From: Alicyclobacillus sp.
Lineage (GTDB): Bacteria > Bacillota > Bacilli > Alicyclobacillales > Alicyclobacillaceae
Assembly: GCA_023511295.1 (NCBI GenBank)
Contig: JAIMBT010000029.1
Location: forward strand, 1 to 38,822
Reading direction: 5' to 3'
Length of the DNA stretch: 38,822 nt
Shown here: positions 9,980 to 21,272 of the stretch, one piece after another
How the letters are laid out: each line of letters starts with the position of its first letter
Position numbering within the stretch: the stretch's first letter is position 1
The notes under the pieces: generated by a model
What the model was told of the DNA's origin: nothing
Database searches by the model: none
Seen by the model: the letters and a program-made list of their open reading frames with translations, nothing else
Made by a program: the position numbers and the translations under genes

Positions 9980-10411
9980 CTACCGCTGCTTCGACTGAAA
10001 CGACTCGCGCACCAGGTGCCAATTCTGCGGAAAGCTGTAACCGAGCAGCCAGAACGAGAGCCCGCGCAAACCGAATTCATAGACGAGGTTCATCTTCAAC
10101 GCCGCACTCATGGCGTCGTCAAACCACACCTCGTGGTCGGTTCCATCCGCACTTCGATAGCGGAACATCGGCGTCGAGGACGCAGCGTCCCACGTGATGG
10201 GCACCTGCTCTTGGTCCGCCAAGCCCTCTGCGCTGTTGTTGGCCATTCCCGCAGCCAGGCGGCCCTTTTGCCACGGAATCAGCCAGTCGTACCCGTACAG
10301 GGTCATACCCATCAGGACTTTGGCTGCTGGAATCTCCGACACGGCGTAGCGCACGGCGTTGCGAACCTCTGGATACGGTGCGACAGCCGTCGGAGGTCCG
10401 ACGGCCGACAT
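9980..10411 (-). CDS. 3' part of an interrupted LysM/GH18 spore hydrolase gene (YaaH/SleL-like)
   Basis: This frame encodes the C-terminal part of a glycoside hydrolase family 18 barrel. It contains ALLPYP-like AVAPYPEVRNAVRYAV, then VLMGMTLYGYDW and later GLRGLSFWLLGYSFPQNWHL, all typical of the YaaH/SleL branch that hydrolyses spore-cortex peptidoglycan fragments. There is no plausible ribosome-binding site before its only internal ATG, and no N-terminal LysM or catalytic motif. The missing part is at 20202-21272, on the same strand. The real coding contribution probably begins at the CCT codon at 10396-10394, after a shared GGACC. As it stands, this fragment is silent unless the intervening DNA is removed; after removal it supplies the last 138 residues of a 495-codon gene product. 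Confidence 0.85.
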   Translation of the reverse strand: MSAVGPPTAVAPYPEVRNAVRYAVSEIPAAKVLMGMTLYGYDWLIPWQKGRLAAGMANNSAEGLADQEQVPITWDAASSTPMFRYRSADGTDHEVWFDDAMSAALKMNLVYEFGLRGLSFWLLGYSFPQNWHLVRESFQSKQR

Positions 10412-10418
10412 CCCACAA
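10378..10418. other. Left attachment site (attL) of the intervening element
   Basis: The core TCGGAGGTCCG (10390-10400) matches TCGGTGGTCCG at the other end (20195-20205) in direct orientation, 10 of 11 bases. The GG at 10395-10396 is my best guess for the central dinucleotide. The element-side arm is 10397-10413 and the chromosomal arm is 10382-10394. The site is about 60 bases past the recombinase stop, the usual position for a serine-recombinase att site. Confidence 0.75.
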
Positions 10419-10457
10419 CCCGTGCCTGTGTAGCCACCTCCGTCACCTCATCCATCC

Positions 10458-11984
10458 TCACGCGGTCGGACAGGCAAACCGATAGGCGACGCGGAGTGCC
10501 CGGCCATCCGCTTGGATGCCTTCCGTGAGCGCGACGAGGAGCGTGCGCGTCACGGCGACGTCTGTCACGGGGTAGGCGAGTGCGTCTGCCACCACACGGC
10601 GCAGCAACCACGGTGGGTCGGCCTCCGGCCAGCGTGCCAGCTCCGCGTCGAGCCCCGCCAGGCGATCTTGCAGTTCCCCCGCTCGCCGGTGCAGCCCGTC
10701 GGCGGCCGCGCGAAACGATGCCTCCGAGAGCCGATTCGCGGCGAATTGCTCCACCAGGGTGCGGTACGTTTGGTCGACCCGCGTCAACTGCTCGCCGAGG
10801 CGGCGTCGGGCGGCCTGCAGAGGCTCCAGCGGATCAAACCGGACGGCCCAGCCGAGGGCATCCCCCGCCGCCAGGACGTCCGCCCGAACACGCTCCAGCA
10901 CCGCCGCCTCCACGCCGTCTGCCGGCAGGAAAGGCTGATGGCAGACCGATCTGCCCCGGTCCGCCTGTGCAACGCAGCGGTAGTAGCGCACACCGCGGGC
11001 GTTGGCGTGAACCGTCATCGCGCTGCCACAGCGACAGCGCAGCAGCCCGCGGCTGAGCAGGTGCAGGGCCCCGCTGCGCCCAGGCTGCTGCCGCCGGCTT
11101 GCGCGAATGGCGGCCGCTCGTTCGAAGGTGGCCCGGTCCACCAAGGCGGGATGGGCGTCACGGCAAATCGCCAGGTGCTGGGGATCCGCCACAGGGATGG
11201 TTCGGCGGCGACGCGTCAGCGGGTCCCCCTTCGCCGGCGCGGCCAGGACCCGTACCCGTCGGCCGTAGACCACGTCCCCCGCGTAGGCCGGGTTGCCGAG
11301 CACGCGCAGCACCGTGCGCTGCGTCCAGCGGCTTCCCGAGGCGGTGTACTGGCCGCGGCTGTTCAGCCACTCGGCAATCCGCCGCGCGCCGAGGCCGCGC
11401 AGATAGAGGTCGAAGATCTCCTGAATGACGGGCGCAAAGGCCTCATCCGGCTGCAGGTGCTGCGTGTCCGGATGGAGCACGTACCCATCCGGCGGCCGCC
11501 CGTTCCACTTCCCTTGCCGCGCCTTCTGCCGCGCACCCATCCGCACCCGCACGGCGGTCTTCTCCGACTCCGCCTGGGCCAGCGCACTGTGGATGGTAAA
11601 CAGAAACTCCGCCCCGTCGCGCTGACTGTCGTAGTTCTCTTCCATCGACAGCACGCGAACCCCGCAAGCGAGCAGCGTTCGCAACATGACCAGCGCGTCC
11701 ACCGTGTCGCGGGCGAACCGCGAGATGCCTTTGAAAAGCACCACCTGGAAACGGCCCTCGCGCGCATCTTGGATGAGGCGCTGCGCCTCGGTGCGCTTGA
11801 CCAAGCTGGTGCCGCTCACGCCCGCGTCGACGTAGACCAGGTCCTCCGGGATATGCCACGCCTCCCCCGACTCCGCGCTACGCAGCCGCGCAATCTCCCG
11901 GCAAAAGCGGATCTGATGGTCAATCGATTCCCCCCGCACCTGCGACGCATCCGACACCCGGGCGTAGACGGCGCAGATGAGCAT
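10458..11984 (-). CDS. Large serine recombinase (site-specific integrase/excisionase)
   Basis: The 508-residue enzyme cuts and rejoins DNA through a covalent serine link. The N-terminal resolvase domain (about 1-150) has YARVS with the catalytic Ser at 11, followed by SIDHQ, and the active-site Arg segment SRFARDTVDAL. A recombinase domain follows (KWNGRPPDGYVLHP and onward), then a zinc ribbon (LLRCRCGSAMT with later YYRC and SVC) and a C-terminal coiled coil (about 395-455). This is the full domain set of the phiC31/SpoIVCA/SprA type. GGGGAGGG lies eight bases before the ATG at 11984, overlapping the end of a small upstream gene. Its stop is about 60 bases from the left attachment core. It most likely catalyses excision, and once did integration, of the surrounding element. 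Confidence 0.95.
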   Translation of the reverse strand: MLICAVYARVSDASQVRGESIDHQIRFCREIARLRSAESGEAWHIPEDLVYVDAGVSGTSLVKRTEAQRLIQDAREGRFQVVLFKGISRFARDTVDALVMLRTLLACGVRVLSMEENYDSQRDGAEFLFTIHSALAQAESEKTAVRVRMGARQKARQGKWNGRPPDGYVLHPDTQHLQPDEAFAPVIQEIFDLYLRGLGARRIAEWLNSRGQYTASGSRWTQRTVLRVLGNPAYAGDVVYGRRVRVLAAPAKGDPLTRRRRTIPVADPQHLAICRDAHPALVDRATFERAAAIRASRRQQPGRSGALHLLSRGLLRCRCGSAMTVHANARGVRYYRCVAQADRGRSVCHQPFLPADGVEAAVLERVRADVLAAGDALGWAVRFDPLEPLQAARRRLGEQLTRVDQTYRTLVEQFAANRLSEASFRAAADGLHRRAGELQDRLAGLDAELARWPEADPPWLLRRVVADALAYPVTDVAVTRTLLVALTEGIQADGRALRVAYRFACPTA

Positions 11985-11987
11985 CGT

Positions 11988-12191
11988 TCAGCCCTCCCCG
12001 CGGGTTGAAGTGGTCGCGCCGTCCGCCGGGTCGCTGTGCGGTGGGCGGAGCCGTTCTGCCGCCGCCGCCGGTCCACGGCTCATGGCCCGGGCGACCGAAG
12101 GCGTCAGCACATCGAGCGCCCGCTGCAGTGACTCTGGAAGCGGCTCGGTGCCGTACGACGTGTGGACAATCCGAATCGGTTCCCCTCGCAT
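11988..12191 (-). CDS. Small protein coupled to the recombinase
   Basis: A 67-codon gene ends three bases before the recombinase ATG, and its stop lies inside the recombinase ribosome-binding region, so the two are probably co-translated. GGGGGG is six bases before the ATG at 12191; an ATG two codons earlier (12197) directly abuts the same purine run. The product begins MRGEPIRIVHTSYGTEPLPE, is mildly basic, and ends in a Pro/Ala/Gly/Thr-rich tail. No family is recognised. Its position makes it a candidate recombination directionality or regulatory factor, which is inference only. Confidence 0.55.
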   Translation of the reverse strand: MRGEPIRIVHTSYGTEPLPESLQRALDVLTPSVARAMSRGPAAAAERLRPPHSDPADGATTSTRGEG

Positions 12192-12258
12192 CTGCATCCC
12201 CCCGCCAGATGGATATGAGCCGACAGATTGTACCGAGACGCCGTCCCGCTACAGCGAC

Positions 12259-13593
12259 CTACTCTGCTTCCGGGTGAAGTTCGAAGGAGACTTCCGGCTG
12301 GACTTTTTGGATCACCAAGTCCTCGTCCCCTGGCATGAGGCGCTTGCCGGATTTCAGAATGTACCGAAGCCACCAGCCCGCCATCCACGACGTGACCAGC
12401 GCCAGCATCACGAGGATGGCAAAGAAGTTCTGGTTGATGATGCCGAGCGCGTACGCCGTCGAGGAGAGCACGATACCCGGCCCCCCGCGCGCGTTCATCG
12501 CGGCCGCGAAGTTGACGCTCGTCAAGTGGTCCGTCCGGATGACGCGGCAGGTGAAGTACACGACCAGTGACTGCACGACGGTCGCGAACAACAGGTACAA
12601 CAGGAAGAACCCGACGTTGAAGTCCTTCGCCAGGTTCAGGTTCATCCCGACGAGGGCAAAGTACAGCGGGATGAAGAACGCGTACGAGATGCCCTGGATT
12701 CCACTCTCCAACTTTTGAAACAGGGCCGGCGGCAGGCTGAATTTGGTCGCCACGCCAGCAAGCAACGCACCGTACATGACGTCAACCTGGAGGTACCCAG
12801 CGATGTCGGAGAGCGCGAACAGGATGACGAGGAAGTACCCGAGGAACGACGCCCGGAACAGGAAGTTGGCTTTTTTCGACGTGATGCGCCGCAAGACCCA
12901 CGGCACGACGGCGATGCAGACAACGAGGAACCCGAAGGTGATGACCAAGCTCTTCGACACCGCCCAGGCGTCAATGCCGTGGTGCCCACCGCCCGACACG
13001 ATGCCGGACGCGATGGCGAGTGCCACCCACAGAATCAGGTCGTGAATCCCCGCGATGGCAATCACAATCTTCGCGAACCGCGAGTGCAAAATGCCGAGGT
13101 CTGCGAAGATCTTCGCGATGACCGGGATGGACGTGACCGCAATCGAGATCGCGACGACAATCTTGAGCGCCAGGACGTTCTGGTCGGGTCCGAGGAACTG
13201 GTGCGGGTCAAACACGTACGTCGACAGCCAACCGACGATGAACGGGATGACGGTCGATCCGACGATGATGGCAATCCCCGTCTTCACGTCTGCCTTCGCA
13301 AACCGCGACTGGAATTTGAGCCCCGCGGAGTAGAGCAGGAAGATGATTCCGAGCTGGTAAATCAGCCCGAACAAATTCCCTTCCGTGGGAAACCCCTGAT
13401 ACAGCCACGCGAAGGCTCCGGGGAGCAAGGTCCCCATGCAGGTCGGCCCGAGCAAGAGGCCGCCTGCCACCTCCCCAATCACCCGCGGGATGGCCAGGCG
13501 CTCCGCCACGTAGCCGAGCAGATTCGCCGCGGCGAGCAGGATGACCATCGCGAACAGAAACCGCGCCAAATCCGCTGCGCCTAAACTGAACAT
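12259..13593 (-). CDS. Cation:proton antiporter (CPA2/KefB-GerN type)
   Basis: The 444-residue membrane protein has about 12-13 hydrophobic segments and the CPA2 pattern: IPRVIGEVAGGLLLGP near the N-terminus, then a conserved ISIAVTSIPVIAKIFADLG and IAIAGIHDLILW with the Asp expected in the ion site. It ends shortly after the last membrane segment, with no TrkA-N regulatory domain, as in GerN/NapA-type Na+(K+)/H+ antiporters. The ATG at 13593 has GAGGAGGT seven bases upstream; the longer upstream frame is not coding. It is a cargo gene of the intervening element and lies directly upstream of the small gene and recombinase, with 67 bases between. Ion specificity cannot be read from the sequence. 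Confidence 0.9.
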   Translation of the reverse strand: MFSLGAADLARFLFAMVILLAAANLLGYVAERLAIPRVIGEVAGGLLLGPTCMGTLLPGAFAWLYQGFPTEGNLFGLIYQLGIIFLLYSAGLKFQSRFAKADVKTGIAIIVGSTVIPFIVGWLSTYVFDPHQFLGPDQNVLALKIVVAISIAVTSIPVIAKIFADLGILHSRFAKIVIAIAGIHDLILWVALAIASGIVSGGGHHGIDAWAVSKSLVITFGFLVVCIAVVPWVLRRITSKKANFLFRASFLGYFLVILFALSDIAGYLQVDVMYGALLAGVATKFSLPPALFQKLESGIQGISYAFFIPLYFALVGMNLNLAKDFNVGFFLLYLLFATVVQSLVVYFTCRVIRTDHLTSVNFAAAMNARGGPGIVLSSTAYALGIINQNFFAILVMLALVTSWMAGWWLRYILKSGKRLMPGDEDLVIQKVQPEVSFELHPEAE

Positions 13594-14023
13594 CTCCTCT
13601 ACCTCCTCATTCGGTACGGTTGCCCAAGCTGTGGGGCAAGGTGACATACCGTATGAGGGACAGGGGGAAGGGTGTCCATGACAATCACCTACCCTGGACA
13701 AGCGTCCATGGCAGACGGGCGCAAAGTTCCACCGATGTCCCACCGGACAGATGGCCAGGGCCAGGTGGCCGGGACCTTCCGCGACAGCCCCCGTACAACA
13801 ACAAGCTCCTACAAATCCAGCGGATCTGTAGGAGCCATTATCCCAAAGCGGCGTTTGCGGTGAGCTCCATCACCGTTTGCTCGGTTGTGGCGGACACCCG
13901 CGGTGACAGGACGACGGACGCAGGCGTCTGCTCTCAGTATAGCGATGCACCGGCAAGGAGCCGCGGCACCGGCCTACATCGCACGTCCGTTGCGCGCAGA
14001 TGGGCCCACCCGCGCGGCGAATC
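13594..14023. other. Intergenic region upstream of the antiporter
   Basis: This 430-base stretch holds the antiporter leader and the terminator-like hairpin of the dioxygenase gene (listed separately). A second imperfect inverted repeat pairs GTGTCCA with TGGACA-type bases around 13672-13700. I compared it by eye with the c-di-AMP riboswitch found before many K+ transporters and did not find its conserved blocks. No coding frame has a ribosome-binding site. Confidence 0.4.
13793..13835 (-). terminator. Terminator-like hairpin after the dioxygenase gene
   Basis: GCTCCTACA (13805-13813) pairs perfectly with TGTAGGAGC (13827-13835), with a further ATCC/GGAT stem inside. On the minus strand it is followed by TTGTTGTTGT. 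It lies about 190 bases past the dioxygenase stop, so it could instead be part of the antiporter leader. Confidence 0.5.
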
Positions 14024-14980
14024 TCAGTCGAGCGGCTTCAGTCGAGAGACAATCTCCTCGCGGCGCGGTTCCAGAAACGGCGGCAATACGACCCGCTCGC
14101 CGAGCGCATCCGGGTCCTCGTCGACCGCGAAGCCCGGTTCGTCGGTCGCAATCTCGAACAGGATACCGTTTGGCTCGCGGAAATACAGGCTGCGGAACCA
14201 GTAACGGTCGACCGGACCGCTGTTCGGCAGCCGGAACGAGCGAACCCGCTGAATCCACGCCTCGTATTCTTCGTACGTCGGCGTCCGAAACGCCACGTGG
14301 TGCACCCCGCCGGCCCCCAATTGTGCCGGCGGCAGGTCCGGTTGGACAACCACGTGCAGCTCGGCCTGCGGCCCTGTCGTGCCCATTTGAAACACGTGGA
14401 CCGTGTCCCCAGGGGACTCCGGATGCGCGTAGGTTCGGACCTTCCGCAGGTTCATCACGGCCGTCAGTACCTCCTCGGTTCCGCGCAAGCTGGGGACACT
14501 GATGTAGATGGGCCCTTGACCCCGGACCTGATACGCGGCGGGAACGGGGCTGCGCTCCCACGCCACATGCGGGTCGCCGGCGCCGCCGTCATCGACCAAG
14601 GCGAGTCGTTGCCCCTCGGGGTCTTCCAGCCAGATGGCGGCCCGCCCGTCGACCTCCGTCACGCCGCTATGCCGAACGCCGTGCGTCGTCAACCAGTCCG
14701 CCCACCAAGCGAGCGCCGCCTGCCCGCTCACGCGAAGGCCGGTGCGAACGATGCTGTGGGTGCCCCGCTGCTCGGCGGGAAGGTCCCAATCGAAGAAGGT
14801 CAGGTCGTTACCGGGCGCCCCTCGCCTGTCTCCGCTGTAGAAGAGGTGATATGCGCTCACGTCGTCCTGATTGACGCTGCGCTTGACGAGGCGCAGCCCC
14901 ATCACGTCTGTGTAGAACCGGTAATTCTCGCGAATCTGCGACGACACCGCCGTCAGATGGTGAAACCCTGTCAACTCCAC
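14024..14980 (-). CDS. VOC-family ring-cleaving dioxygenase (MhqA/MhqO-like)
   Basis: The 318-residue protein is built of paired vicinal-oxygen-chelate (glyoxalase-fold) modules. The opening [20 protein letters not shown] and the second module [20 protein letters not shown] supply metal-binding His residues, and [18 protein letters not shown] carries the metal-binding Glu. This matches the MhqO/MhqA/YkcA group that opens hydroquinone or catechol rings and protects against quinone stress. The start is a GTG with GGGGGA upstream. It is divergent from the S9 peptidase gene (215-base gap). It is a cargo gene of the intervening element; a role in detoxification is inferred from the family. Confidence 0.92.
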
Positions 14981-15195
14981 CTTGATTCCCCCTGCCTCGA
15001 CACCGTATCGGACGCGCGCGCCCTACCGGTATCTTACATCAACGGCACCCGATTCACCGAAGCGTGGGCGCAAGCGCGGCGCGAACGCGTGCGAAGGCGA
15101 GAACCGAACGGCGGCGGTGAAGGAGGTGGGCGGTCGCAGCTCGAATTCTCTGAGTGTACATAGCACCCGCCGCCTGGCGGAAGGAGGATGCGAAG

Positions 15196-17172
15196 ATGGC
15201 GATTGACCGACTGTGGGACATCGCGACCTGGGGACAGCTGGTGTTTGATCCGCTCCGGCCCCGCCTCTACTTTACGGAATCGCGCCCGGACAAGCGCAAG
15301 AACCGGATGACCCACCGCATCATGATGATGCCGAGCGATGGGCCGGACCGCACACCGTCTCCCTTGACGGCCGGCCCCAGCGACCAGCGCCCAACCCCCT
15401 CGCCGGACGGCCAGTGGTTGGCCTTCCTCTCGCGCCGCTCCGGCAGCGCACAGGTGTGGCGGCTGCCGCTGCAGGGCGGTGAACCGGTGCAGGTCACCGC
15501 CATTCAGGGCGGCGTGAAGGATTTTCGCTGGTCGCCGCAAGGGAACGGGTTGGTCGTTGTAGCCCACATCGAAGATGGCGCCCTGCAACGGGAGCAGGCG
15601 GCGACCGAGCCTGGCGCCGATGCTTCCGAGGACGAACTCGACCGGTACTACAACCGCGATGTCCGCCACATCACGCACCAGTACTACAAGCTCGACGGCG
15701 AGGGGTTCTTCGACGCGGGCCGCGACCAGCTGGTGTGGGTCCCCCTCGACGGCGAAATGACGCTGTGGACCGACGGCAAGGACAACTACGCGGAACCGGT
15801 GTGGAGCCCGGACGGCGCGTTTGTGTACTGCTTGTACCGCGCCTATGACCCCGAGGGCCCGCACCCTGGCATCGTGCGGGTCAAGCGGTTTCATCTCGCC
15901 TCTGGCACGTGGACCCAACTGCCCTTGCCGGATTGGACCATCAGCGGGCTGCGGCTGTCGGAAGACGGGCGGCACCTCGCGTTTTGCGCGACGCAACCAA
16001 AGGACCTCGGCTACGGTCTCACCACGCTCTACCGACTGGACCTTGCGACGAATCAGCTCACCGACTTGTCCAGCCACCTGGACCGGTGTGTGGGCGACGA
16101 GAGTTCGACGGATGTCCCCGCCAGTTCCACGGCCAAACCGACCTGGCGAAGCGACAGCGTCCTGATGCTGCTCTCGGACGCCGGCCGCGTCACGCTGACG
16201 ACATTCGCCGAGGGACGAGTGGAACGACTGTGGGATGCCAAACGGGTGGTCTACGATTTCTCCGTCCACGGCGACCAGGTCGCGCTGGCCGTCGCGGACG
16301 AGACCCACCCCTCCGGGATTGCCATCGCGCGGTTCGGCGATGCAGACGTGGACATCCACTACGCGCCGGTTCCGTGGACGGCGGAGGACGGACCGGTCGC
16401 ACCCACCGAGCTGTGGGCGACCGAGTCGGATGGTACGCGCGTCCAGACGTGGGTTCTGCGCCCCCGCACCCCCGGCCCACACCCGACCATCTTGGAAGTT
16501 CACGGCGGGCCCATGGCGATGTACGGGTACCGTTACTTCCACGAGTTCCAATGCCTCGTCGCGGCAGGCTACGCCGTCGTCTACACGAATCCGCGCGGGT
16601 CGCAGGGCTACGGTCACGACTTTTGCTCCGCCATCATTGGGCAGTGGGGCGACAAAGACTACCGCGATGTGTTGGCCGGCCTGGATGCTGCACTGGCCGC
16701 CTTCCCAGACCTGGACGGCCACCGACTCGGCGTCGCTGGTGGCAGCTACGGCGGTTTCATGGTGAACTGGATGGTCTCGCACAATGATCGGTTCCAAGCA
16801 GCCGTGACGATGCGTTCGGTGGTCAACCGGTTCAGTGCGATGGGCTCGAGCGACATGGGCTGGCTGCGGGTGCCGCAATACGGAACGCGACCGTGGTGGG
16901 AGGACCCCGAGCCATACTGGCAGCAGTCGCCGCTGCGCTATGCGTCCAACATCCACACACCGCTCTTGATTGAGCACCAGGAGAAGGACTTCCGCCTGCC
17001 GATTGAGCAGGGCGAGCAGCTCTACAGCGCGCTCAAGTACCTCGGCCGAACCGTCGAGATGCTGCTATACCCGGACGAGTCGCACGGTATGAGCCGAAAC
17101 GGCAAACCGTGGCACCGCATACACCGCCTGCGCGCCATCGTCGGTTGGTTTGACCGCTACCTGAAGGGGTGA
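15196..17172 (+). CDS. S9 family prolyl-oligopeptidase/acylaminoacyl-peptidase
   Basis: The 658-residue protein has an N-terminal seven-bladed propeller (about 1-390; repeated strands such as SPDGQWLAFLS and SPDGAFVYCLYR) and a C-terminal alpha/beta hydrolase domain. The nucleophile elbow is GGSYGGFMVNW, the catalytic Asp lies in EHQEKDFRLPIEQGE, and the His in DESHGMSRNGKP. The HGGP oxyanion segment precedes YGYRYFHEFQ. No signal peptide is visible, so it is cytoplasmic and would release short peptides or N-acylated amino acids from peptides. AAGGAGGAT lies before the ATG at 15196; the in-frame upstream ATG lacks such a site. It is a cargo gene. Confidence 0.95.
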   Translation: MAIDRLWDIATWGQLVFDPLRPRLYFTESRPDKRKNRMTHRIMMMPSDGPDRTPSPLTAGPSDQRPTPSPDGQWLAFLSRRSGSAQVWRLPLQGGEPVQVTAIQGGVKDFRWSPQGNGLVVVAHIEDGALQREQAATEPGADASEDELDRYYNRDVRHITHQYYKLDGEGFFDAGRDQLVWVPLDGEMTLWTDGKDNYAEPVWSPDGAFVYCLYRAYDPEGPHPGIVRVKRFHLASGTWTQLPLPDWTISGLRLSEDGRHLAFCATQPKDLGYGLTTLYRLDLATNQLTDLSSHLDRCVGDESSTDVPASSTAKPTWRSDSVLMLLSDAGRVTLTTFAEGRVERLWDAKRVVYDFSVHGDQVALAVADETHPSGIAIARFGDADVDIHYAPVPWTAEDGPVAPTELWATESDGTRVQTWVLRPRTPGPHPTILEVHGGPMAMYGYRYFHEFQCLVAAGYAVVYTNPRGSQGYGHDFCSAIIGQWGDKDYRDVLAGLDAALAAFPDLDGHRLGVAGGSYGGFMVNWMVSHNDRFQAAVTMRSVVNRFSAMGSSDMGWLRVPQYGTRPWWEDPEPYWQQSPLRYASNIHTPLLIEHQEKDFRLPIEQGEQLYSALKYLGRTVEMLLYPDESHGMSRNGKPWHRIHRLRAIVGWFDRYLKG

Positions 17173-17210
17173 AGGATAGCTCCTCCATTGTTTCCCAGGC
17201 ACCTCCCGCC

Positions 17211-17240
17211 GCCGCCCCTGCAACCCCGCGCAGGGGCGGC
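17211..17240 (+). terminator. GC hairpin between the peptidase and the secreted-protein gene
   Basis: An 11-bp perfect stem (GCCGCCCCTGC with GCAGGGGCGGC) and eight-base loop lie about 40 bases past the peptidase stop. There is no T-run after it and the next gene begins 30 bases later, so it may terminate partly or stabilise the upstream mRNA. Confidence 0.4.
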
Positions 17241-17269
17241 GCGTCTATGGAGGCAAAGGAGGAATCGAG

Positions 17270-18253
17270 ATGGCAAAATTCGTTTGGGTGGCGCCCGCGC
17301 TGATGGCGGGATTGGCGGCTATCTGGGGCGGGAACCAGCCGCTGGCGGGTGCTGCGTCCCCCGCGCAGCCGCCCGCCCGGGCACAGGTGCAGACGCGGAC
17401 GGCACCCGACATCCCCGCTCCGCCGCCGGCTCCAGCTTACACCTTCTTCCATGGGCGTTGGCCAAGATCCGTGAGCATTCCCCTGGCCTTGCATCCGGAC
17501 ACACTTGTGGCGCAGCGGATGCCGGACGTTGTACCGCCGTCGCGAGCGGTGACGGTCTACCTGCCCCTCTACCCCGGGGCCAAGCGCGTGCAATCGGTTC
17601 CGGAAATCGCAGATATGGGCACCCCTCTTGACGGGGACCTGGTCGACGGCAGCCTGTATGCCGAATCGCCCGCATCCGAGGCGAGCATCCGGGCGTGGTA
17701 CGTAAAGGAAATGCAGACGATTGGCTACACGTTGAGCGGCCAGGCGGAAGCGGCCCGGTACGGCCAGGTCACGTCGCGGGCGTACGAGTTTACGAAGCGG
17801 GGCATACCGGGCAATCCGACGCAGTTCCCGGACATCGAACTGCGGTTCCTCGAGCAGCCGCACGGTGGCCAAACGGTGTTTTCGCTGAAGGCGTCGTTCA
17901 TCGTGGTGCCGCCACGGCCCAGGGACACCTACCTCTCCACCGACATCACGCGCGTCGTCCTGGATGACGGACAGAGGACCCAAACCGTGACGGATCACGC
18001 TTGGATTTCGCACGTCGTGGCGGAGATCAACCAACTGCCAGTACAGACGCCCGGTATCTCCAGCGGCGGGCCTGCGATTGCTGCCGGCAGTATCACCACC
18101 ATCACAGCCACGTTCTACCCCGCCAGTGGCGACCCCATCCGCGTGGTGGACCATATCTACTTCGGCCCAGTCACCGTCGGTACGGACCCCACCGGGTTGG
18201 CGGGGACGGAGGCCCTTTGGTCGGCGCTCGTCGGCGTGTTCCAACCGCGCTGA
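17270..18253 (+). CDS. Secreted protein of unknown function
   Basis: The 327-residue product starts with a signal peptide (hydrophobic core VAPALMAGLAAIW, cleavage probably after AGA-A near residue 30). A Pro/Ala-rich linker follows (about 30-60), then a globular region. Around residues 95-145, VTVYLPLYPGAKRVQS plus an IRAWYVKEMQTIGYT segment resemble the pattern seen in Firmicute lipoprotein-like domains that compare successive peptide positions, but I cannot name the family. AAAGGAGGAATCGAG gives a clear ribosome-binding site. It is cargo of the element and probably expressed with or just after the peptidase. Confidence 0.75.
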   Translation: MAKFVWVAPALMAGLAAIWGGNQPLAGAASPAQPPARAQVQTRTAPDIPAPPPAPAYTFFHGRWPRSVSIPLALHPDTLVAQRMPDVVPPSRAVTVYLPLYPGAKRVQSVPEIADMGTPLDGDLVDGSLYAESPASEASIRAWYVKEMQTIGYTLSGQAEAARYGQVTSRAYEFTKRGIPGNPTQFPDIELRFLEQPHGGQTVFSLKASFIVVPPRPRDTYLSTDITRVVLDDGQRTQTVTDHAWISHVVAEINQLPVQTPGISSGGPAIAAGSITTITATFYPASGDPIRVVDHIYFGPVTVGTDPTGLAGTEALWSALVGVFQPR

Positions 18254-18274
18254 GCCGCAACGGCATCGTGGGTA

Positions 18275-18330
18275 CGCACACCCTGCCATCCTGTCCTCCC
18301 CACCTACGGGGCGGCCGGATGGCAGGTGTC
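18275..18330 (+). terminator. Long imperfect hairpin after the secreted-protein gene
   Basis: ACACCCTGCCATCC pairs with GGATGGCAGGTGT (one bulge), enclosing a CCCC/GGGG stem. There is no T-tract, so its role as a terminator rests on position and stability. Confidence 0.4.
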
Positions 18331-18342
18331 GCCTGTGCTGGT

Positions 18343-18394
18343 TGTAACATTCATGTAACATTTCCGGTGCGGCGTGCGTCTGAGTGGGTAGAAT
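18343..18394 (+). promoter_or_regulatory. Promoter region with an 11-bp-spaced direct repeat
   Basis: TGTAACATT occurs at 18343-18351 and again at 18354-18362, exactly one helical turn apart. A -10-like TAGAAT is at 18389-18394 without a recognisable -35. Activators of the OmpR/PhoP type bind hexamer repeats spaced by eleven bases in this position, and the GTAACA core is one base from the PhoP TTAACA. The assignment to PhoP is inference. Confidence 0.4.
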
Positions 18395-18431
18395 CGCAAC
18401 CCGCCCAGTGCGGGTGAGGGAGGCACGGCCC

Positions 18432-18881
18432 ATGACCGACCAACTGCGCTGGTGGACGACCACTGGCTTTGTGTACCGCGACACCGCCGAACGCGACGTG
18501 GCGATGACGTTCATCGAAGTGGTGGAAGCCACGTCCCGGAGGAAAGTGGTGCGGCGCTTTCACGGTGCGGTTCCGCGCCAAACCGTTGACGGAACCACCG
18601 TCACCGTACACTTTCCCAGGGACGCCGGCCAGGTGAAGGCGCGCCCCAAGTCGTGGTCGCCCGGCCGCCTCACACACCTCTACTGGCCGGAGTCGCGGAC
18701 CATGATTGAGGTGGTGCACGCGCCCCGGTACGCGTGCACGTGCGGCCGGACGCTGGTTTCCGACCTCCCCTACGCCTTCATGTGGTGCCCCTGCGGGCGC
18801 AAAGCCCAACCGGTGCCGGAGCCGCCGCGCACGGTCGAAGCCGAGCCGGACACCGGGCTGGTCGTCGAGTGGTGGCCGTAA
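18432..18881 (+). CDS. Small Cys-rich protein, possible zinc ribbon, unknown function
   Basis: The 149-residue product has a beta-rich N-terminal region (RWWTTTGFVYRDTAERDVAM, then several alternating hydrophobic strands) and a C-terminal pair of CxC motifs: ACTCGRTL (near residue 100) and MWCPCGRK (near 117). The spacing fits a small zinc-binding knuckle pair. No signal peptide is present. GGGAGG lies nine bases before the ATG at 18432; a longer frame begins at 18384 without a ribosome-binding site. It lies in the element's cargo. The family is not recognised. Confidence 0.65.
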   Translation: MTDQLRWWTTTGFVYRDTAERDVAMTFIEVVEATSRRKVVRRFHGAVPRQTVDGTTVTVHFPRDAGQVKARPKSWSPGRLTHLYWPESRTMIEVVHAPRYACTCGRTLVSDLPYAFMWCPCGRKAQPVPEPPRTVEAEPDTGLVVEWWP

Positions 18882-18998
18882 CCGCCCGGATGGAAGCACC
18901 GCCACCCTGCCCGACTTCCACCCGCATCCTGAAGGATGAATCACCGCGATGTATGCCAAAGTAAAAAGGCCACCTTCGCGGAAGAGAGGACACCCAGG

Positions 18999-19721
18999 AT
19001 GCAGGTACGACGGCGCACCCGAATGGTGCTGGTCACCGCTGCTGGCGTCGGGATGGCGGTTTGGACGGCGGTTGGGCTCGGCCCCGACCGCCTGTCCACC
19101 ATGGCGCTCGCACAGTCCGTACTCCGTGAGCTCTCACAGGGGCACCTGACGGGGGTTCACACAGGCCCTCCCGCCCGTATCGATATCACCCTCATCCAGC
19201 CCGGCGACATCCTGCTCTGCCACAACCCAGGTGGGGCGTACGGGTTTTGGACACACGCCGTCCTGTGCGTCAGCCGAGACGAGGTCATAGACGCCGACGA
19301 CTTCGCCCGGGGTACCATCCGCCAGCCCGTCCGGCACTACCAGGCGTACGACGAAGTCCTGTTGCTTCGCCCGACGGTCCCGCTGGCCATGCGCCAGAAC
19401 GCCGCCCGTGCGGCGGAACGCGCGCTCCACACGCCGTACGACCCCCTCGGCAGCCTGTTCGACCATCGTTCGGTTTACTGCAGCAAGCTGATTTGGCAGG
19501 CCTATGCCGACGCCGGTGTGGTCCTCTGCCCGGCGGCCGGTTGGGTGTTGCCAGATCAGTTGGCGGCAAGCCCGCGGCTGCGCCGAGTGGCAGACTGGAA
19601 GGCCCAAACCGTGGCGCGGCAGGTCCCGTCCGCAGAGGTAGGCGCTCGACCGGGGAACTCGGACCACGCCGCCGGAGAGGAGCGCTTGCGCCGTGGGGAG
19701 TGCGCTTCGGTTGTTTGCTAG
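18999..19721 (+). CDS. YiiX-like NlpC/P60-superfamily cysteine hydrolase
   Basis: The 240-residue protein begins with a basic N-terminus and a hydrophobic segment (VLVTAAGVGMAVWTAVGL), so it is exported or membrane-anchored. The permuted papain-type core has PGDILLCHNPGGAYGFWTHAVLCV with the candidate catalytic His, and VYCSKLIWQAYADAGV with the candidate catalytic Cys, as in the YiiX/YebB group. Such enzymes cleave amide or ester bonds in cell-envelope material; the substrate is unknown. The start at 18999 is chosen because AGAGAGGA precedes it; 18936 is an alternative. Its end overlaps the next start by 29 bases. Confidence 0.75.
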   Translation: MQVRRRTRMVLVTAAGVGMAVWTAVGLGPDRLSTMALAQSVLRELSQGHLTGVHTGPPARIDITLIQPGDILLCHNPGGAYGFWTHAVLCVSRDEVIDADDFARGTIRQPVRHYQAYDEVLLLRPTVPLAMRQNAARAAERALHTPYDPLGSLFDHRSVYCSKLIWQAYADAGVVLCPAAGWVLPDQLAASPRLRRVADWKAQTVARQVPSAEVGARPGNSDHAAGEERLRRGECASVVC

Positions 19722-20142
19722 CCGGTACGCGTGGTTGTCCCTTCTGTCGCTCAGCAGCCTGGCACATCCGTGGCTCCAGCGCGCGCTCGTTCTCGCGTGG
19801 ACGGTGGAGATGGGGCGAGCGGTGGCACGGCGCGCGGGCCACGGTCGACCCATCGGCGTGCTGACCGCGGCAACGGTGAGTCAGTTGCCCGGGCTTGTCC
19901 TCGCGTGCGCCAGCGCCGCGTTCGCGCTGCGGGGTGAAACCAGCGAGTGGGCGAGCGGTCTTCTCGAAATCTGGTACCACCCGTTCGTCTGCGTGCTCGA
20001 GCTGCTGCCAGCGCGCGCTGTGTGGGCGTGGTCAGACCTGTTTCTCTGCGTCTGCCTCTTACCGTTCGGCTTCATCGCTGGCGCCGCGGGTCTTCTATGG
20101 TTCACCCGCCGCTGCCTGCGCCACAGGGCTGGGATTTTCTGA
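19693..20142 (+). CDS. Small integral membrane protein of unknown function
   Basis: The 149-residue product starts at a GTG inside the end of the preceding gene (29-base overlap, +1 frame), with GAGAGGAG about eleven bases upstream. Three to four hydrophobic stretches are visible (around 10-35, 52-72 and 100-135), the last containing WSDLFLCVCLLPFGFIAGAAG. No motif is recognised. It is the last cargo gene of the element and stops 41 bases before the element arm of the right att site. The read-through tail of the interrupted hydrolase gene runs antisense to its second half. Confidence 0.6.
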   Translation: MGSALRLFASRYAWLSLLSLSSLAHPWLQRALVLAWTVEMGRAVARRAGHGRPIGVLTAATVSQLPGLVLACASAAFALRGETSEWASGLLEIWYHPFVCVLELLPARAVWAWSDLFLCVCLLPFGFIAGAAGLLWFTRRCLRHRAGIF

Positions 20143-21272
20143 AGCCACCCTCGCCGATTTGCTGGACGCCGCCCGTGGTGCCGGATGTCGGCCATCGGTG
20201 GTCCGCCGGCCCACCCCCACTCGTAGCTCATCAGCATCACGAAATCCACCGCCGCCCCCAACGACCGGTCATCGAACACACCCACCCGGCTGTCATTCGG
20301 GTTGTCCCCTTGCTTCGGCGGAAGCGCCACGGAAATGGAGAGCCCCTGGCTGCGACAGGCGGCCGCCAACTCCTCCACGAACGCGGTGAACAGCGCGCGG
20401 TCGGACGGGCGCATCCGCTCGAAGTCAACCTGTATGCCGCCAAACCCGCGTTGTCGCGCCGTGGACAGCGCACTCTGGACCACCTTGCGGCGCAGGCTCG
20501 GATTCGCCATCACGGTGTGCGCGAGTTCCGTGTGAAACTGCGTGCCGTCGAAGTTGGTCACGGTCATCAACGGCTGAATGTTCGCGCGGCGCGCGGCACG
20601 AACCGCCTCGGTATCAGGCTGCGGGGTGAGTGTGCCGTCCGGCTTGACACTGTAATGAAACACGCTCAGATGCGTCAGCCGATCTGCCACCTCCCGCACC
20701 CGTCTCGCGTCGCTGGGCTTGCCTTCTGGCACCAGATACGCGTGAACGTCGATGGCGCGCCGCTGGCGGATGCGCCGTGGCACCGGAACCTCGGCGCCCG
20801 GCGCCAGCCGGATGGCGCCCGCGAGCGCATACCCTGCTCTGTCCGCGGGAGCGGTCGCTCCGAATGGCGCAGCAGCGGTCGTGGCCGAGGTCGCCAGGCC
20901 GGTGTCGCCGTTTGCCTGCGGCGCCTGCTCCGGAAGCATGTGAAGACCCGCTTCCCCGCCGACACTCGCTGCGCCTTCCGACGCCGCCGGATACCCAAGC
21001 CCCTCCGCCGGATGCCGAACCGCGCCGACCCATGCGGCCAACGCCGCTTCGCTCACGCCGATCCGCTCGGCGACACGGCGGACGGTGTCATCCGCCCGCC
21101 ACGTGTAAACCTCCGCCAGCGTCGGTGGGCCCGGCGTCAACAGGTGTTGGCCTGGCACCAGCCGATTCTCGTCCGACAGTTCATTCAGGTGCAACAGTTG
21201 CTTGACCGTCGTGTTGTGTGCATCCGCAATGCCGCGCAGCGTATCGCCCGGCACCACGGTGTGAATCCACAT
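19881..21272 (-). CDS. 5' part of the interrupted LysM/GH18 spore hydrolase gene (YaaH/SleL-like)
   Basis: The first 357 codons (21272-20202) are the true coding part. They encode two LysM domains (MWIHTVVPGDTLRGIADAHN and a second unit YTWRADDTVRRVAERIGVS), an Ala/Gly-rich linker (about 95-170), and the first two thirds of a GH18 barrel. The GH18 part includes the catalytic strand GFGGIQVDFERM with E285, and ends in MLMSYEWGWAGG. After this the frame enters the element and reads a further 106 meaningless codons, antisense to the last cargo gene. YaaH/SleL proteins are spore-coat or cortex enzymes; in B. subtilis yaaH is transcribed in the mother cell by sigma-E. The ribosome-binding AAGGAG is 12 bases from the ATG. 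Without excision the product is truncated and should be inactive. Confidence 0.88.
   Translation of the reverse strand: MWIHTVVPGDTLRGIADAHNTTVKQLLHLNELSDENRLVPGQHLLTPGPPTLAEVYTWRADDTVRRVAERIGVSEAALAAWVGAVRHPAEGLGYPAASEGAASVGGEAGLHMLPEQAPQANGDTGLATSATTAAAPFGATAPADRAGYALAGAIRLAPGAEVPVPRRIRQRRAIDVHAYLVPEGKPSDARRVREVADRLTHLSVFHYSVKPDGTLTPQPDTEAVRAARRANIQPLMTVTNFDGTQFHTELAHTVMANPSLRRKVVQSALSTARQRGFGGIQVDFERMRPSDRALFTAFVEELAAACRSQGLSISVALPPKQGDNPNDSRVGVFDDRSLGAAVDFVMLMSYEWGWAGGPPMADIRHHGRRPANRRGWLQKIPALWRRQRRVNHRRPAAPAMKPNGKRQTQRNRSDHAHTARAGSSSSTQTNGWYQISRRPLAHSLVSPRSANAALAHARTSPGN
20178..20218. other. Right attachment site (attR) of the intervening element
   Basis: The core TCGGTGGTCCG is at 20195-20205, with the probable central GG at 20200-20201. 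The element-side arm (20183-20199) is the inverted counterpart of the left element arm, 15 of 17 bases. The chromosomal arm (20202-20214) lies in the codons for the GGPP motif of the GH18 domain. Confidence 0.75.

Follow-up and report, generated by a model that had tools for sequence, protein, structure and literature searches.

Does the small gene that lies directly before a large serine recombinase (LSR) gene in Alicyclobacillus sp. encode the recombination directionality factor (RDF) of that enzyme? The pair lies in a stretch of 38,822 nucleotides (GCA_023511295.1, contig JAIMBT010000029.1, positions 1 to 38,822), which was analysed as a whole and is called the window below. Only a handful of serine integrases have a known RDF (PMC11530663), and RDFs are described as being in general without significant similarity to one another (PMC5025042). 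Because they share so little sequence, they are hard to find. A first-pass annotation of the window, made from the letters and their open reading frames, had put the small gene forward as a candidate.

The split yaaH-like gene and its insert

The gene yaaH is an established spore gene. In the window a yaaH-like gene is present in two parts, with the recombinase and several other genes between them. The parts and the insert are laid out as follows.

20193–21272, minus strand: yaaH-like gene, 5′ part, with LysM and the first half of GH18 (Pfam, tblastn)
9980–10405, minus strand: yaaH-like gene, 3′ part, with the second half of GH18 (Pfam; in-frame composite)
10395–10399, minus strand: att core GGACC at the LSR end, on the side of the host yaaH C-part (composite frame)
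20200–20204, minus strand: att core GGACC at the far end, on the side of the host yaaH N-part (composite frame)
10395–20204, no strand: intervening element of about 9.8 kb, with the small gene/LSR pair at one end
10458–11984, minus strand: large serine recombinase, 508 aa (Pfam: Resolvase, Recombinase and Zn ribbon domains)
11988–12191, minus strand: small gene, candidate RDF, 67 aa, with a strand-YG-helix core and a variable tail
11992–11999, minus strand: likely SD of the LSR, GGGGAGGG, inside the last codons of the small gene (read from the sequence)
12198–12206, minus strand: likely SD of the small gene, GGCGGGGGG, 6 nt before ATG 12191 (sequence and the starts of relatives)
12209–12233, minus strand: promoter-like box GTACAA-N10-CATATCCAT before the small gene, with a sigma-E/K-like −10
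12259–13743, minus strand: cargo, Na/H exchanger (Pfam)
14024–14980, minus strand: cargo, glyoxalase/dioxygenase (Pfam)
15154–17172, plus strand: cargo, S9 peptidase (Pfam)
18936–19721, plus strand: cargo, C92 amidase (Pfam)
17270–18253, 18384–18881 and 19693–20142: cargo, three frames without a Pfam match

The two GH18 halves end at the same GGACC core, which is found at both ends of the insert, and we therefore conclude that the 9.8-kb element splits the yaaH-like gene. About 60 bp separate the LSR stop from the nearer core (10399–10395). In its organization the insert resembles the skin/gin type of sporulation intervening element, and its excision during sporulation is predicted.

On the minus strand the frame 12197–11988 is open and gives 69 aa from ATG 12197 or 67 aa from ATG 12191. 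We prefer ATG 12191, the start of the 67-codon gene in the first-pass annotation, because GGCGGGGGG abuts ATG 12197 but stands 6 nt from ATG 12191. The same annotation had the gene end three bases before the recombinase start, and the gap is exactly that: the stop TGA (11990–11988) is followed by ACG and then by the LSR ATG at 11984, with the two frames in phase (stop, Thr, Met). Its shared ribosome-binding region was also recovered, as the SD-like GGGGAGGG lies within the final codons of the small gene, 7 nt before the LSR ATG. Given this spacing and the embedded SD, translational coupling of the two genes is plausible; it is not proven, since the LSR has an SD of its own.

LSRs with about 45–63% identity to it over the matched part are present in the same family and order. 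Among phage records, 515 had LSR matches, all below 60% identity; the best of five LSR loci on viral contigs reached 37%, and plasmids yielded one LSR at 31% (E ≤ 1e-40).

A small-protein family beside related recombinases

The same arrangement recurs in relatives. The halves of yaaH flank such an LSR, at the same site, in 12 loci from Alicyclobacillus and related bacteria (the window, L038, L039, L040, L043, L044, L045, L047, L048, L049, L060/L134 and L135); A. suci, A. hesperidum, A. sacchari, A. tengchongensis, A. mengziensis and A. acidiphilus are among the hosts. A match to the yaaH N-part, paralogues included, was present in 53 of the 61 genomes searched. The elements measure 3.6 to 16.1 kb (window, L038–L040, L043–L045, L047–L049). 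All 12 split the sporulation gene at a short direct repeat, and when the halves are joined at the core the frame is open across the join in every case; in the 10 relatives printed, the join resembles intact yaaH. Among open-licence reports, and within the matches listed, we found none of intervening elements in yaaH or yhbH, and the only such element from Alicyclobacillus among those matches was a sigK prophage (PMC13141910).

Several of these elements have features of their own. The 3.6-kb element of L043 (11861–15510) carries its LSR in the orientation opposite to yaaH, so that the 3′ end of the LSR faces the N-part. A tandem pair of LSR genes lies inside the single yaaH element of L060/L134. 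In L135 (11566–13000) a small-gene frame is followed by an apparently decayed LSR, possibly a fossil module. Outside yaaH, an element of about 2.45 kb in a gene for an HtrA-like protease (L046, 12388–15616, from a metagenome bin) is the smallest seen; it contains a small frame, an LSR and a truncated globin, and the small frame is family-like by eye, without HMM support.

Recognizing the small protein itself required a detour through position. Iterative phmmer/hmmsearch started with the window protein recovered no relatives, and a single-sequence search of 59 genomes gave E ≤ 0.05 in two, namely the protein itself and one weak match (E 0.019). Members for a family model therefore had to be chosen by position, as small frames before 17 LSRs. 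These frames, which end near the LSR start, share I-x-V-x-x-V-x-[YF]-G followed by a helix. In a leave-one-out design, each member was removed in turn together with near-identical siblings, and 16 of the 17 then ranked directly behind a single frame. That top-ranking frame (L041, 7134–7427) is the small gene of a second LSR absent from the model. The remaining member, L050, ranked 154th and was removed from the family model.

The model was then applied more widely. In a second set of 67 loci with 20,630 frames it gave 16 matches at E < 0.01, and 15 of these lay at most 33 nt upstream of an LSR start or 27 nt inside the gene; an HMM search next to other serine recombinases was a check that the first-pass annotation had suggested. 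The sixteenth (L135) precedes the LSR read as decayed. Seven of the 16 repeat genes of the model and two are one gene counted twice, which leaves eight genes new to the model. Across 398 genomes of the class, at least 13 places in at least 12 genomes matched at E ≤ 0.01; all 13 adjoin LSRs, and nine are model members. This survey sampled the class and scored at most 15 candidates per genome, so its count is a lower bound. Three other matches in the window's own genome were weak (E 0.046 to 0.36), and 46 distant LSR loci among L073–L119 (L100 excluded) gave none. Before more distant LSRs, coupled small frames were seen in 7 of 16 cases by a loose rule, L231 being doubtful. Pfam, PHROGs and NCBIfam returned nothing credible for the small protein or its family, and a phage search gave no match to the small protein.

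Each of the 12 yaaH elements carries an LSR preceded by a member of this family, as scored by HMM. BLAST of the 10 complete elements recovered the LSR as the sole family common to all 10 and no further family in more than five (E 1e-4, clusters read by eye), a comparison that covers 10 of the 12 elements and that genes as divergent as the small gene would escape. By HMM and, for 10 of the 12, by BLAST, the small gene is thus the only gene besides the LSR found in all 12, and it is kept with the LSR in elements whose content otherwise differs. Within the wider clade, a small frame with HMM support is missing before the second LSR of the L134 tandem pair and before the LSRs of L042, L046 and L050, where candidates can be picked by eye; the third LSR in G062 is outside this count. 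In both L047 and L048, the ATG that follows the G-rich stretch does not share the reading frame of the core, and translation has to begin at a TTG.

Selection acts on part of the protein. Whole-frame dN/dS was mixed, at 0.13–0.67 in seven of nine pairs and 0.80 and 1.72 in two with few changes, after which core and tail were separated in seven pairs. The 32-codon core has a pN/pS of 0.28 and codon-position differences of 34/15/62; the tail has 0.84 and 59/53/52. We conclude that the core is under purifying selection and the tail nearly neutral. The frame is thus conserved, as the first-pass annotation had required of its candidate. Short proteins of 40 aa (the member in L060) and 39 aa (L219, outside the order) keep the Y/F-G core.

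A promoter-like signal and the probable function of the small protein

The GTACAA of the window is a variant of a GGACAA box in its relatives. All 17 members have CATA 19–28 nt upstream of the chosen start, against a background of 6.3%, and in most of them GGACAA or a near form precedes it. In 1.16 Mb (both strands, 31 loci), GGACA[AT]-N9-12-CATA occurs 32 times, with about 9 expected by chance for equal bases; 22 of the occurrences precede small gene/LSR modules (9 assigned by script, 13 by reading the list), and the other 10 are about the chance level. One of the 22 directly precedes an LSR without a small gene: at the second tandem LSR of L134 the GGACAA-N-CATA box runs into the LSR start and leaves no room for one.

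The SpoIIID consensus is WWRRACARNY. The spoIIID genes of seven genomes carry a CATATAC −10-like stretch, and at spoIVA CATATA lies close to GGACA, or to the complement of GGACA, in six of seven (both read by eye), so the parts of the box fit a mother-cell promoter with a SpoIIID-like site. As a whole the box resembles such a promoter, with a −10 of the sigma-E/K type and a SpoIIID-like box, while its −35 region shows no clear fit to either consensus. In B. subtilis, overlap between a SpoIIID site and the polymerase site has been associated with repression (PMC517825).

Taken together, we think it probable, from gene order and sequence conservation, that the window holds an element of the skin/gin type in a yaaH-like gene and that the small gene encodes the RDF of its LSR, the two being co-expressed in the mother cell. 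Because both the gene pair and the promoter-like signal are retained in relatives, the small protein is probably an excision helper; it also comes from the same element as its LSR, as an RDF is expected to. The proposal of the first-pass annotation is therefore still the best reading, now with conservation in all 12 yaaH elements and with a promoter-like signal before the gene, and in its activity the protein stays a candidate.

Under this reading, transcription would start just before the small gene, from the putative mother-cell promoter, and one mRNA would yield both proteins; the LSR start falls where the small gene ends, and its coupling to that gene is plausible. The small protein would bind the LSR, and the site is probably close to the coiled coil and the second DNA-binding domain, where other RDFs bind; binding would permit recombination of attL with attR. 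The element would then leave, and yaaH, whose composite is in frame, would be rejoined. If both proteins are made in the mother cell only, excision there would be one-way and the germline copy would keep the element. Some points count against this. A fixed RDF–LSR operon leaves the integration of the element unaccounted for. The searches showed no known RDF with a similar sequence: the profile of the yaaH-type small family (A1) gave no match at E ≤ 10 in the PDB, the SprA–SprB fusion included.

Alone, the small protein was modelled by AF2 as an extended stretch (residues 1–19), a helix (20–40) and a loose tail, with a pLDDT of 73.9 and, besides the long helix, a second, short helix of low confidence. 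A read-through chain of small protein and LSR was modelled with alignment rows of the LSR only, because MAFFT aligned the small-protein rows onto the LSR. In this weak model (pTM 0.39, linker pLDDT below 50) residues 9–14 become a strand and no interface is readable, and the alignments of the structural comparison scarcely reach its small-protein part.

Among the alternatives, an accessory partner fares best, one that stabilises the LSR, aids synapsis or holds the enzyme inactive until needed, with no role in directionality. Both readings would account equally for the tight pairing with the LSR and for a fold of helix and strand that is suited to binding. We nevertheless judge it unlikely, as the gin element, the C. 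difficile skin, SPbeta and the B. subtilis skin are all described as needing a small factor for excision, and BLAST of 10 of the 12 yaaH elements found no other common gene that could be that factor.

Somewhat less probable still is that the frame is a translational leader, which sets LSR expression and whose peptide has no function. Stop and start are a few bases apart in many relatives, the SD of the LSR lies within the small frame, and the tail evolves almost neutrally, all of which such a leader would explain. It would have no need of a conserved amino-acid core, yet the core is constrained to the pN/pS given above, and proteins of 39–40 aa retain its Y/F-G. The position of the stop also varies, from 61 nt before the LSR (L219) to 35 nt into it (L051, the same gene as that of L020).

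That the protein regulates transcription of the element, for instance as an autorepressor, seems very improbable to us: the gene does adjoin its own promoter signal, but searches of Pfam and further protein libraries found no DNA-binding family, and the AF2 model shows one long helix together with an extended stretch and a second, short helix of low confidence.

A chance frame in GC-rich DNA, which the 86 ORFs of at least 40 aa overlapping 9 kb here and the lack of relatives in single-sequence searches might suggest, is refuted by the leave-one-out and second-set HMM results together with the third-position excess and low pN/pS of the core; homologous frames occupy the same place before related LSRs, and the frame is therefore more than chance.

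Parallel modules and known systems

On contig C20 of the window's genome (L200), a second LSR element splits yhbH, with a coupled small gene of its own and a GGACAA-N-CATA signal. An LSR beside the yhbH C-part, with the N-part on its other side, was found in this genome and in G002, G009, G020, G021, G027 and G028. Seven of nine yhbH loci have a coupled small gene and a promoter-type signal (GGACAA, GGACAT or AGACAA), and the other two (L141, L142) have other upstream frames and no box. The small proteins at yhbH form a different family (APPITDW), and profile–profile comparison found no direct relation between the yaaH type (A1) and the yhbH type (A6). In hhalign, L232 scored 5.8e-5 to A1 and 0.0014 to A6, single-pair values by which it may link the two types. 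On a B. licheniformis plasmid (NZ_CP021678.1, L208), an LSR near prkA is preceded by an annotated 62-aa hypothetical protein; this is perhaps a related module near yhbH.

A broader idea, which we regard as possible but rather doubtful, is that the small genes preceding LSRs in sporulation elements belong to one old, fast-changing RDF superfamily, with several families and targets in Bacilli (yaaH, yhbH, the HtrA-like gene) and co-expression with the LSR in the mother cell. The fold of this putative superfamily would be a strand, YG and a helix, sometimes with a second strand. If the idea is true, its RDFs could be read from the genome beside their LSRs.

Described systems offer close parallels, compared here by layout and size. 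In B. subtilis, skr is a 64-aa RDF ORF that overlaps the 5′ end of spoIVCA and is required for the repair of sigK; it starts before spoIVCA, behind its sigma-E promoter, and a figure legend names sigma-E and SpoIIID (PMC6957869). The skr–spoIVCA pair is the nearest counterpart of the window pair, as both have a small gene at the start of the LSR gene, a mother-cell-type promoter (putative in the window) and a split sporulation gene, but they differ in target (sigK, not yaaH) and in spacing (an overlap of 101 nt against a gap of 3 nt). The skin element of C. difficile needs CD1234, a 72-aa RDF under sigma-E and SpoIIID, for its LSR CD1231 (PMC5025042). In contrast to the layout of the window, the RDF gene there is served by a separate promoter, and every cell expresses the LSR (PMC5025042). 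The first-pass annotation had held that no need of the skin recombinase for a partner is known; this has been superseded, since skr (PMC6957869) and CD1234 (PMC5025042) are required.

The gin element, with GirC and GirX, is likewise a sporulation element of non-phage nature with a small factor; GirX, of 42 aa, is needed for excision and is conserved among gin elements that otherwise differ in what they carry (PMC5595907). The likeness is drawn from that description, in which no coupled operon layout appears, and not from sequence, and the target of gin is gerE. In SPbeta, SprB is a 58-aa RDF with a mother-cell promoter (PMC4191935). SprA is the best structural match of the window LSR (PDB 9dxh; Z 19.5, rmsd 16.5, 464 aligned; SprA/SprB also 9dxd), and SprB too is small, but sprB is described as transcribed apart from sprA (PMC4191935), and A1 has no match to the SprA–SprB chain. 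In models made for the yin element, RDFs from several elements occupy one common region of the LSR (PMC10747680).

The rule that recurs here, by which a tiny frame follows a mother-cell-type promoter and immediately precedes an LSR, would supply many integrase/RDF pairs for testing, and such pairs could be used for genome-engineering switches. For the biology of the family, our results suggest that DNA excision restores at least two spore genes in the spore-formers of the Alicyclobacillaceae.
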